Assembly: GCA_003559855.1 (NCBI GenBank) | Contig: PWJZ01000019.1 | Location: 1 to 46,359 of the forward strand | Reading direction: 5' to 3' | Source: Bacteroidales bacterium | GTDB lineage: Bacteria; Bacteroidota; Bacteroidia; Bacteroidales; UBA7960 | Length of the DNA: 46,359 nucleotides | In this document: piece after piece, positions 31,012 to 33,964 of the stretch | How positions within the stretch are numbered: the first letter of the stretch is position 1 | How the letters are laid out: every line of letters begins with the position of its first letter | Notes under the pieces: generated by a model | Databases searched by the model: none | What the model was told of the DNA's origin: nothing | The model's input: only the letters and a program-made list of their open reading frames with translations | Program-made: the position numbers and the translations under genes

Positions 31012-32415
31012 ATGCCTGTAAAAGACCGATCATATCTTTATGAAAATCTAAGGAATAAGCACCGGGAATTTGTTTATGATAGTTACACAATAAATTACAG
31101 GGGCGATGATCTTTTCATTGAGTATCTGTTTACTATGGCAGGTGGCATAGAGTTTCGTCCTTCATTGCATTTTCCCGCGTCTGCATTTTTTCGGGCTGAA
31201 GATATAACTGAAAGCATGTTGCGAAACCTGGTATTTCATATAGGGATGATTGAACTGATAAGTTATTGGAAGACCGCCTGTCCGCCGAAAATAATTATTA
31301 AGCCCCACAAGCTTAGTGAAGAGCAGGCTGAATGGTGGAAAAATTTGTATTATAAGGGAATGGGGGAGTTTTTCTTTATGAATAACATTGCGGTGGGTTA
31401 TGACGATTTTGTAAATATATATAATCATGAAAATAGTTCTGAAAGAACCTTATTGTCACATATGAATTTTTCTGACGGACTTATCATTCCTGTGGGAGGA
31501 GGGAAGGATTCGGTTGTGACTCTTGAGCTGCTTAAAGACCATAAGCCTGTTGTAATACCGATGGTTGTTAATCATCGCCGGGCTACCCGGCAAACAATTG
31601 AATGTGCGGGTTTCGACCTGTCAAATGTCCTAGTGATCAACCGCAAACTTGATCAGACTATGCTTGATCTTAATGATAAAGGGTATTTAAACGGCCATAC
31701 GCCTTTTTCCGCTCTTTTGGCTTTTATTTCACTGCTGGCTTGTGCAGGTACAAAAACCTGGTATGTTGCTCTTTCCAACGAATCAAGCGCCAGTGAAGCA
31801 ACTATCCCCGGTACTGACATTAATCACCAGTACTCAAAAAGCTATGAATTTGAAAAGAGCTTCAGGGATTATGTGATGAAATTCATTTGCCCGGAAATAG
31901 AATACTTCAGCTTCCTGCGACCATTGAATGAACTGCAAATAGCCGGATTGTTTGCCCGGTACCAAAAGTATCATAAGGTTTTTAAAAGTTGTAATGTAGG
32001 AAGTAAAAGCGATATATGGTGTTGCAATTGCTCAAAGTGTTTGTTTGTGTTTATTATTCTGGCTCCGTTTTTGGAACCCGGTAAGTTGTTTGATATTTTT
32101 GGAGAAAACCTTTTTGACAAACTTGATCTGAAAAAATATTTTGATGAGTTAACAGGTATTTCCGAATACAAGCCTTTTGAATGTGTCGGTACGATTGAAG
32201 AAGTAAATATTGCATTGTGCTTAGCTGTTAAAAAGTTCTATAATGAACAGGAAAAACCTGCTTTAATAAAATATTATATAGAATCAGAAAAATGCATCCA
32301 TTATTTTAACAGACGGATTGATCTGCTGAGTTCAGTTTCATCGAAGCATTTTGTACCGGAAAGGTTTATCAGGCGTGTTTTGGATAACTTGCCAATAGAA
32401 CACGGATGGCGCTGA
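31012..32415 (+). CDS. murL: UDP-MurNAc-L-Ala-L-Glu epimerase MurL
   Basis: A 467-residue cytosolic protein of the MurL type. The known enzyme uses ATP (released as AMP and PPi) to invert the terminal L-Glu of UDP-MurNAc-L-Ala-L-Glu to D-Glu. Features: an N-terminal domain with YLFTMAGGIEFRPSL and aromatic-rich helices (about 40-150), the PP-loop-like ATP site PVGGGKDSVVTLELL with GGGKDS at 162-167, the NESSASEATIPGTDINHQYSKS stretch in two halves (about 261-282), and a cysteine cluster CCNCSKC at 337-343. The next gene is a MurD homologue, exactly the pairing of the alternative D-Glu route (murD2-murL). I recognise the family by these motifs and by context; no search was run. Confidence 0.82.
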   Translation: MPVKDRSYLYENLRNKHREFVYDSYTINYRGDDLFIEYLFTMAGGIEFRPSLHFPASAFFRAEDITESMLRNLVFHIGMIELISYWKTACPPKIIIKPHKLSEEQAEWWKNLYYKGMGEFFFMNNIAVGYDDFVNIYNHENSSERTLLSHMNFSDGLIIPVGGGKDSVVTLELLKDHKPVVIPMVVNHRRATRQTIECAGFDLSNVLVINRKLDQTMLDLNDKGYLNGHTPFSALLAFISLLACAGTKTWYVALSNESSASEATIPGTDINHQYSKSYEFEKSFRDYVMKFICPEIEYFSFLRPLNELQIAGLFARYQKYHKVFKSCNVGSKSDIWCCNCSKCLFVFIILAPFLEPGKLFDIFGENLFDKLDLKKYFDELTGISEYKPFECVGTIEEVNIALCLAVKKFYNEQEKPALIKYYIESEKCIHYFNRRIDLLSSVSSKHFVPERFIRRVLDNLPIEHGWR

Positions 32416-32575
32416 TAAAGCGGATAATCACTGATTAATCCGCGTAAATCCGCTTGATCCGCGTTCAACGTGTGGAATAAGAATTTTTTTATGCAACCTG
32501 CTATTAATAATATTTTTCACAGGGTAAATCTGCGTTTTATTCCTTTCGGCATAAAAACGTTCAATTAATAGAGTA
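32416..32575. repeat. Repeat-like spacer between murL and murD2
   Basis: This 160-base spacer holds direct and inverted variants of AATCCGCG / GCGGAT at 32420-32465. It also contains ACAGGGTAAATCTGCG near 32522, which resembles the complement of an inner segment of the 2945-3152 element. It is non-coding and separates two genes that should be co-transcribed. Confidence 0.4.
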
Positions 32576-33964
32576 ATGATAGACAGAAACCTGAAAGTTT
32601 TTTTTAAAAATAAGAAATTATTGATTCTCGGCTTTGGACGTGAGGGGGAGTCAACATATAGGTTTGTCAGAAAATTATTGCGCGGAGTACTTTTGGGTAT
32701 TGCAGATTGCCGCAGATCAGTAGTAGATGATTTTGAAAACAAATTCGGCTCCGATACCAATGTTGTCTTTCATACAGGTGATAATTACCTTAAATCGCTG
32801 CAATTTTATGATCTGGTTATAAAAAGCCCCGGTGTTTCTTACAAGAAGCTTGCCGGGTTTTCGAAACTTCCCGAAATAACTTCCCAGACCGAATTATTCA
32901 TTAAATATTATCGTGATAAGATCATTGGCGTTACCGGTTCAAAGGGTAAGTCCACTACCTCCAGCATGATATACTATATTATGCGGCAGGTAAAAAAAGA
33001 CGTTGTTTTTGTAGGGAATATCGGCATTCCTCCTTTCGACCGTATAGCATCCGTTAAAGCCCATTCATGGATAGTTTACGAGTTGAGCAGCCATCAGCTT
33101 GAAAATATAGATGTTTCGCCGCATATTGCCGTGTTGCTGAATATTTTCCAGGAACACCTTGATCATTACGGTTCTTACGTTGATTACCAGAAAGCTAAAT
33201 TCAATATTGCACGTTACCAAAAGAGTGGCGATCGTTTTATTTTTAATTCTTCAATCCGATTGATCCATAAACTGATGGAAAAATATCCTTTGAAATCGCA
33301 GTTGTTTGGTTTTGGTAATGAACCTGCCGGAAAGAGGTATTGTTTCTTATCGGGCAATGATATCGTTTGTCATGACGGTAAGGTATTCAGCAATATTGAC
33401 AAGCATTGCAAATTAACCGGTCGTCATAATCTTTACAATATGATGGCGGTGATCCTGGCGTGCCGCATAGCCGGTACAGATGATGAAAATATTATAGAAG
33501 GCATCTCTACATTTACCGGATTGCCGCACAGGCTTGAATATATCGGTAAGTATGGCGGCGTAAACTTTTATAATGACTCCATAGCAACAATACCGGAAGC
33601 AGCCATTGAAGCTATACAATCGGTTCCGCTTTTGGCAACGGTAATTATAGGAGGATATGACAGGGGAGTGAATTACGAAAGACTGATAAAGTGTCTTGAA
33701 AATTCGTCACCGGAGAATTTCATCTTCATTGGTGAAGCGGGCAAAAGAATATATGATGAAATGTGCAGGGATAATTCTCAGATACTGAGCCGCCTGCATC
33801 TTATTTATAACTTTGATGAAGCCGTAAAGCTTGCTATAAGGCTGACTCCCTCTGGCAGATCGTGCCTTTTATCGCCGGCTGCTGCCAGTTATGATATGTT
33901 CCAAAATTTCGAGGAAAGAGGCGACAGGTTCAAAGAGCTTGTTGTAAAATATTCGAAAAGATAA
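32576..33964 (+). CDS. murD2: UDP-MurNAc-L-alanine--L-glutamate ligase, MurD2 type
   Basis: A 462-residue cytosolic Mur ligase. The MurD-type N-terminal domain begins KKLLILGFGREGEST (about 13-27). The ATP site is GVTGSKGKSTTSS, with GSKGKST at 121-127. The central domain has VYELSSHQLEN, NIFQEHLDHYGS and the carbamoylated-lysine region YQKAKFNIARYQ. The C-terminal domain includes GLPHRLEYIG and NDSIATIPEAAIEAI, with ALSPAAAS-type LLSPAAASYDMF near the end. Normal MurD adds D-Glu. Because the adjacent gene is MurL, this copy is inferred to be MurD2, which adds L-Glu for later epimerisation. Sequence alone does not exclude an ordinary MurD. Confidence 0.82.
   Translation: MIDRNLKVFFKNKKLLILGFGREGESTYRFVRKLLRGVLLGIADCRRSVVDDFENKFGSDTNVVFHTGDNYLKSLQFYDLVIKSPGVSYKKLAGFSKLPEITSQTELFIKYYRDKIIGVTGSKGKSTTSSMIYYIMRQVKKDVVFVGNIGIPPFDRIASVKAHSWIVYELSSHQLENIDVSPHIAVLLNIFQEHLDHYGSYVDYQKAKFNIARYQKSGDRFIFNSSIRLIHKLMEKYPLKSQLFGFGNEPAGKRYCFLSGNDIVCHDGKVFSNIDKHCKLTGRHNLYNMMAVILACRIAGTDDENIIEGISTFTGLPHRLEYIGKYGGVNFYNDSIATIPEAAIEAIQSVPLLATVIIGGYDRGVNYERLIKCLENSSPENFIFIGEAGKRIYDEMCRDNSQILSRLHLIYNFDEAVKLAIRLTPSGRSCLLSPAAASYDMFQNFEERGDRFKELVVKYSKR

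Follow-up and report, generated by a model that had tools for sequence, protein, structure and literature searches.

How does a bacterium without a recognizable cytosolic glutamate racemase provide D-glutamate (D-Glu) for its cell wall? The question is raised by two neighboring genes in a contig of a Bacteroidales bacterium (GTDB UBA7960; assembly GCA_003559855.1, contig PWJZ01000019.1), of which positions 1-46,359 were analyzed; this whole stretch of 46,359 nucleotides is referred to below as the window. The first gene encodes a homolog of MurL and the second one a MurD-family ligase of the MurD2 type. We conclude, with a probability of about 0.91, that the pair constitutes a branch of the MurL/MurD2 route in Bacteroidales, standing in for the cytosolic racemase MurI in this genome and in approximately one-third of the sampled genomes of the order. 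By this route, MurD2 would attach L-glutamate (L-Glu) and MurL would then invert the glutamate in place to D-Glu, through a carboxylate adenylation suggested by homology and by the predicted fold. That the organism uses this route had been proposed in a sequence-only reading of the window and is now supported by a profile match, by the residues that govern the chirality of the ligase substrate, by the lack of MurI and of the aminotransferase Dat above their cut-offs, and by the complete lack of overlap between MurL and MurI among the genomes of the order. Homology, ligase residues, the pairing and fusion of the genes, the avoidance of MurI and a predicted fold are what the analysis establishes; the activity and stereochemistry of the enzymes and the essentiality of the route for the cell are inferred from them.

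In the available text of one account, the route is confined to a fairly small set of genera among the Gamma- and Alphaproteobacteria and the actinobacteria (PMC8788868), and that of another reports orthologs of low similarity in a fungus, in cyanobacteria and in an amoeba (PMC5808125); the string 'bacteroid' does not occur in the available part of the main text of the latter. A search of the titles and abstract beginnings of openly licensed papers detected none that places MurL in Bacteroidota.

The murL-murD2 gene pair

The locus comprises the following features.

31012-32415, forward strand: murL homolog, open reading frame (ORF) of 467 residues, with a match to NF041275 and a QueC/QatC-like fold in a model with a predicted local distance difference test score (pLDDT) of 93.6
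31495-31512, forward strand: GGGKDS PP-loop, residues 162-167, predicted ATP phosphate site, conserved in aligned MurL proteins
31990-32040, forward strand: C327-x9-C337-x2-C340-x2-C343, predicted QueC-like zinc site made of invariant cysteines
32416-32575, forward strand: intergenic gap of 160 bases, from the ORF coordinates
32576-33964, forward strand: murD2 homolog of 462 residues, predicted UDP-N-acetylmuramoyl-L-alanine:L-glutamate ligase, from a match to TIGR01087 and residues E193/I336/R363
32936-32956, forward strand: GSKGKST ATP loop of the ligase, residues 121-127, a sequence motif
33152-33154, forward strand: E193, aligned with D182 of Escherichia coli MurD and E197 of Xanthomonas oryzae MurD2; role from the available text of PMC8788868
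33581-33583, forward strand: I336, aligned with K319 of E. coli MurD; same source
33662-33664, forward strand: R363, aligned with K348 of E. coli MurD and R358 of X. oryzae MurD2; same source

The first protein produced a nearly full-length match to the NCBIfam MurL family NF041275 (E = 7.3e-77, 258.7 bits, profile positions 24-443 of 447), the only NCBIfam family matched at E<=0.001, and all 63 aligned MurL proteins from the order match the same family at E<=0.1. This alignment (A1, 63 rows, excluding three fusion proteins, the protein of genome G054 and a fragment from G052; G and L numbers are our handles for genomes and loci) shows G163, G164, K165, D166 and S167 to be invariant and G162 to be conserved in at least 90% of the proteins; C327, C337, C340 and C343 are invariant, as is C391. 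Such invariance of the motif cores implies that the motifs are not due to chance. Both ORFs and the motifs GGGKDS, CCNCSKC (residues 337-343) and GSKGKST were thus correctly recognized in the sequence-only reading, with two amendments: the ligase gene does follow murL on the same strand, after 160 bases rather than directly, and the cysteine motif, which is indeed present, should include C327 and omit C338, which is not invariant.

In the wide sense, the protein qualifies as MurL by near-full-length homology, by its MurD2 partner and by a genome that encodes neither MurI nor Dat over the cut-off, with the caveats of an exported racemase-like lipoprotein (see below) and an incomplete assembly. 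Although outside the narrow equivalog, it counts by its sequence as a MurL homolog from a separate branch, probably like MurL in function. The protein has no Pfam-A family at E<=0.001; at E<=1, the 63 relatives mainly yielded weak hits to DUF6395 (56 members, best E = 5.2e-5) and, for 17 of them, to Pfam QueC (best E = 0.0034). No solved relative was detected by sequence in the PDB, where the MurL profile gave short PP-loop matches only, and no relative was found in viral contigs.

The second protein scored 320.5 bits against the MurD profile TIGR01087 (cut-off 211.95) and accordingly belongs to the MurD family. At the positions of E. coli MurD residues 182, 319 and 348 (in the published numbering, which omits the first methionine), it carries E193, I336 and R363, the E/I/R combination of the MurD2 type, unlike the D/K/K of the MurD encoded in the dcw cluster of the same genome; an alignment with MurD and MurD2 around the glutamate-binding residues had been proposed as a check in the sequence-only reading. 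According to the available text of PMC8788868, X. oryzae MurD2 has E197 and R358 where E. coli MurD has D182 and K348, the double change E197D/R358K makes X. oryzae MurD2 a D-Glu ligase, and K319T enables E. coli MurD to use L-Glu; the same source reports that Streptococcus mutans MurD carries the arginine yet uses D-Glu, so that the arginine alone is not decisive. The positions of X. oryzae P433 and F435, reported there to have no effect on chirality, are occupied by alanine and tyrosine in the window ligase. Among MurD2 proteins of the order encoded in ORFs of at least 400 residues, E/I/R is present in 63 of 64, the exception being D/I/R (L124, G034), whereas all 34 full canonical MurDs from genomes with MurL have D/K/K. 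The window ligase is therefore predicted, from these residues, to be an L-Glu-using MurD2.

The gap between the two genes contains a repetitive-looking element, ATCCGCGTAAATCCGC, at 32438-32463, which is present in a single copy in the window; its 15-base core occurs in 3 of 335 loci, all three of them covering this very place. Promoter and terminator predictions showed no excess over shuffled sequence.

Distribution of MurL and MurI and other sources of D-glutamate

We searched 198 genomes of the order for both MurL and MurI. MurL matches were found in 68 genomes (among them G052, where the match is a piece of 22.9 bits at the end of a contig, and G054, where it contains one stop) and MurI over the cut-off in 120, and not a single genome has both, against 41 expected if the two were independent (Fisher p = 1e-42, a value that ignores shared ancestry). 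On a tree of the C-terminal part of MurD, the MurL/MurI state requires 5 changes. The other 10 genomes yielded neither a MurL match nor MurI over the cut-off; two of these, G075 and G179, share one genus code and are 99% complete. The idea that genomes with MurL hide an ordinary racemase was rejected, given that they yielded sub-threshold matches only.

MurL and MurD2 are closely linked. Of the 68 genomes, 58 have the two genes side by side, a count made up of 56 fetched pairs, the pair of the window and that of G058, whose partial MurD2 at a contig end was counted as adjoining; in 8 they lie on separate contigs, G054 has no MurD2 at E<=1e-45, and the pairing in G052 was not classified. In three pairs (G079, G107 and G183), the two proteins are encoded by a single ORF, with MurL first. 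The fused ORFs are 885-965 residues long (L097, L133, L135; L206, L225, L229, L235, L237, L241, L258). A scan of genome contigs, overlapping with the 198-genome sample (e.g., L193, L202 and L211), yielded at least 579 MurL relatives. Among the best 80 of these, MurD2 is located downstream on the same strand in 70 and fused in 7, with none in the flank in 3, and each of the 75 testable MurD2 proteins is of the E/I/R type; by record title, 77 of the 80 appear to belong to Bacteroidota, including lineages from rumen, gut and sediment, and the rest comprise one 'uncultured bacterium' and two records with Clostridia or Clostridium in the title. The closest of the listed relatives are L182 (76%) and L183 (70%), both apparently metagenome-assembled genomes from sediment, judging by title. 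In a sample of 296 genomes of the phylum (the listings of which include two further genomes of the window's order, leave 14 genomes unlisted and cover part of the classes), 252 have MurI over the cut-off, whereas the window's genome is the only one with a full MurL match, two others having pieces of 20-21 bits, which speaks for a restricted distribution of MurL within the phylum. Within the order, a large section of the Bacteroidales, most of it uncultured, thus appears to rely on MurL/MurD2 as its regular substitute for glutamate racemase.

The sequence-only reading allowed for the route to act alone or beside the usual MurI and MurD, and suggested a genome search for murI and a second murD. 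The window's genome (2.97 Mb in 131 contigs, 96.33% complete) yielded no MurI over the cut-off and no Dat over the cut-off, the partial Dat matches reaching at most 81.7 bits; in the order, Dat over the cut-off (277.45) was found in 2 of the 198 genomes, both with MurI and neither with MurL. A second MurD is present: a canonical one (391 bits), intact by its residues and encoded in the dcw cluster, where its gene is flanked by mraY and ftsW. Thus, the route does not act beside an ordinary MurI that we could find, and it does coexist with a canonical MurD.

Several observations weigh against assigning the wall's D-Glu to this pair. The 258.7 bits of the window protein are far below the curated cut-off of 700 of NF041275, the only MurL model matched; this cut-off was set for a Xanthomonadales equivalog and is reached in none of the 198 genomes. 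The profile search places the protein with MurL, as anticipated, albeit under the cut-off. In an assembly of 131 contigs and 96% completeness, the absence of one gene is weak evidence on its own. The same genome encodes a 493-residue lipoprotein-like ORF (L001:718-2199, reverse strand; G000:C49) that retains both glutamate racemase cysteine motifs, ACNTA and GCTHYP, and scores 64.5 bits in its best piece, or 95.9 bits when read from the second methionine, against TIGR00067 (cut-off 146.65); with its lipobox-like start, it is possibly an exported racemase. Sub-threshold matches to the racemase family, of up to 43.5 bits, were found in 11 other MurL genomes, and sub-threshold matches to the Dat family in some (G156, G177 and G046; best 149.6 bits, in G156). 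Finally, a full canonical MurD retaining the D-Glu residues is kept here, a feature absent from the available text of the published account.

These observations could be combined into an ordinary route, in which the lipoprotein, a weak Asp/Glu racemase or a sub-cut-off aminotransferase feeds the canonical MurD, while the pair serves elsewhere, e.g., in making a secondary product. Both the cysteine motifs and 95.9-bit score of the lipoprotein and the intact residues of the canonical MurD fit such a scheme, which we nevertheless regard as improbable: the lipobox-like start, as we read it, would have the lipoprotein act outside the cytosol; in the other MurL genomes among the 68, TIGR00067 matches do not exceed 43.5 bits; the strict avoidance of MurI over the cut-off by MurL in 198 genomes is not expected of a side pathway; and 30 of the 68 MurL genomes lack a full canonical MurD (short in 26, none found in 4), with 4 more unclassified. 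The remaining 34, the window's genome among them, have a full MurD, invariably of the D/K/K type, and this suggests another possibility, namely that both routes operate, with MurL/MurD2 as the main one and the canonical MurD salvaging D-Glu from wall turnover or from the environment. Such salvage would add to the MurL/MurD2 explanation and is compatible with it, so the odds of the two are not meant to sum to one; we hold it tentatively, as somewhat less than an even chance, considering that no source of D-Glu for salvage was identified and that in 26 MurL genomes the only canonical MurD is a stub without the ATP half, so that salvage would be dispensable in many relatives. If the replacement of MurI by MurL/MurD2 is correct and the cell depends on it, an apparent lack of D-Glu synthesis in a genome may be a misreading, and inhibitors of glutamate racemase would be expected to be ineffective on Bacteroidales with MurL/MurD2.

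Predicted fold and possible chemistry of MurL

An AlphaFold2 model of MurL built from the 63 sequences (mean pLDDT 93.6) was compared with solved structures using VIA-align. Among the chains compared, the best match was QatC (9y01; Z 18.1, root mean square deviation (rmsd) 3.8, 328 aligned residues, model residues 16-425), followed by QueC (2pg3; Z 13.3, rmsd 3.5, 199 aligned) and Cap9 (9nto; Z 12.2, rmsd 2.5, 168 aligned), with argininosuccinate synthase trailing (Z 9.2). Foldseek gave a single match at E<=0.001, again QueC 2pg3, and the relation to QueC rests mainly on the VIA-align scores and the motifs. With this fold and an SGGxDS-type loop, MurL falls into the QueC-type PP-loop superfamily, where it resembles an ATP pyrophosphatase of the QueC type that carries a C(x)9CxxCxxC site. 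QueC itself, in the available text of a review (PMC13329287), is marked by SGGxDS and C(x)8CxxCxxC and works on a carboxylate in ATP-dependent steps; that text contains none of the words 'epimerase', 'peptidoglycan' or 'MurL', and no paper treating MurL as a QueC-family protein was found among the openly licensed papers searched by title and abstract beginning. The predicted fold and cysteine motif fit the AMP release and alpha-carboxylate adenylation proposed for X. oryzae MurL (PMC8788868, available text), and the invariant C391 is a candidate proton-moving residue. If the MurL/MurD2 reading is true, the well-studied scaffold of QueC provides a frame for the chemistry of MurL.

Given that the nearest solved fold is that of QatC, a component of an anti-phage system, the first protein might be another QueC-family enzyme, a conjugating one similar to QatC or Cap9, rather than an epimerase. 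This we consider very remote, less credible still than the ordinary route discussed above: by sequence the protein and all 63 aligned members belong to MurL (NF041275), the usual neighbor of the gene is MurD2, and no PADLOC family (library of 2023) matched the protein at E<=1, which argues against membership in the Qat or CBASS defense systems. The alignment with QatC extends beyond the PP-loop domain, hinting that MurL and the phage-defense protein share a two-domain ancestor.

Truncated MurD proteins and comparison with known systems

The 26 short MurDs pose a question of their own. Their ORFs span 178-245 residues between stops and align to the last approximately 180 residues of full MurD, and in 24 of the 25 loci inspected (L166, L168-L174, L176-L180, L268-L278 and L280) they are located between mraY and ftsW; in G005 mraY is not in the stretch, and the stub of G071 is not among the 25. 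No canonical MurD was found in G020, G077, G129 and G181 (the last 73% complete), and G052, G095, G107 and G160 were left out of the count because MurD is cut by contig ends. Among the 80 of the 120 MurI genomes that were searched, 79 have exactly one MurD match at E<=1e-45, which extends at a minimum over profile positions 21-440 or 1-430; in G017 (70% complete), there is no match at this threshold. A profile of the short MurDs detected no short replacement in these genomes, only an additional 111-residue fragment in G006. Breakage of the assemblies was rejected as an explanation given the closed ORFs, the mraY and ftsW flanks and the lack of a short form in the 79 MurI genomes.

The start of the stub corresponds to an internal methionine that is present in 32 of 34 full MurDs of MurL genomes and in 33 of 40 of MurI genomes. 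K348 is retained in 7 of 25 short MurDs, whereas the full ones all have it (34 of 34 in MurL genomes and 40 of 40 in MurI genomes); K319 is retained in 16 of the 25. The domains that bind UDP and ATP are missing from the stub, as is, in many cases, the glutamate-binding lysine, and judging from these losses it cannot act as a ligase alone. It does appear to be under constraint: in six same-genus pairs, the ratio of nonsynonymous to synonymous differences per site (pN/pS) is 0.20-0.45, the corresponding ranges being 0.13-0.56 in six pairs for ftsW and 0.10-0.27 in five pairs for mraY, all rough values with synonymous sites near saturation. On a MurL tree built with a quick method, the full and short states require 14 changes, 4 to 5 of them imposed by well-supported branches; genomes with one genus code can differ, as G034 (short) and G148 (full) do, and likewise G049 and G159. 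At equal C-terminal identity, full MurDs from MurL genomes fall 2-3 points behind those from MurI genomes in the conservation of their N-terminal part, in a comparison of well-filled bins with non-independent pairs and 40 of the 120 MurI genomes. A model of the stub from 14 sequences (mean pLDDT 78) has poor confidence up to residue 50 and mostly good confidence beyond it.

Repeated truncation at one boundary together with retained constraint suggests a job of the C-terminal domain of MurD other than ligation. We give an even chance to the proposal that, after the switch to MurL/MurD2, the dcw MurD was repeatedly stripped to one C-terminal module of approximately 180 residues with a second, non-catalytic function, for example, holding together MraY, FtsW or other wall enzymes or regulating MurD2 and MurL. 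The picture of a clean stub is weakened by MurD matches that run upstream past one or two stops in 5 of the first 13 cases (G140, G058, G073, G164 and G100), representing either over-extension or remnants of the lost part, and slow decay with a convenient internal start is possible, chiefly in view of the several conserved residues missing from the most divergent stubs. No paper on such a stub was found among the openly licensed papers searched by title and abstract beginning; the 'truncated MurD' in the available text of PMC12208494 is a construct for an interaction test. If the proposal holds, a non-catalytic job of MurD becomes visible only after its ligase job has been taken over. The conserved stub makes the question of a structural role for a Mur ligase directly accessible.

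Compared with known systems, the pair most closely resembles MurL (XOO_1319) and MurD2 (XOO_1320) of X. oryzae, with which it shares near-full-length MurL homology, adjacent genes, the lack of an ordinary MurI or Dat, and glutamate and arginine at the two chirality-switching sites of MurD2. It differs in belonging to another phylum, in a MurL far below the Xanthomonadales equivalog cut-off, in the retention of a canonical MurD, full in 34 and as a stub in 26 of the 68 MurL genomes, and in the MurL-MurD2 fusions of some relatives. With canonical MurD, the window MurD2 shares the ligase family and the conserved K198 and N138, the identity being 27% with E. coli MurD and 30% with the canonical MurD of its own genome, and differs in having E/I/R instead of D/K/K. 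With QueC, QatC and Cap9, MurL shares the predicted fold, its GGGKDS and C-x9-C-x2-C-x2-C motifs corresponding to SGGxDS and C(x)8CxxCxxC of QueC, whereas identity in the structural alignments is 8-16% and the substrate, partner and outcome of the reaction would differ.

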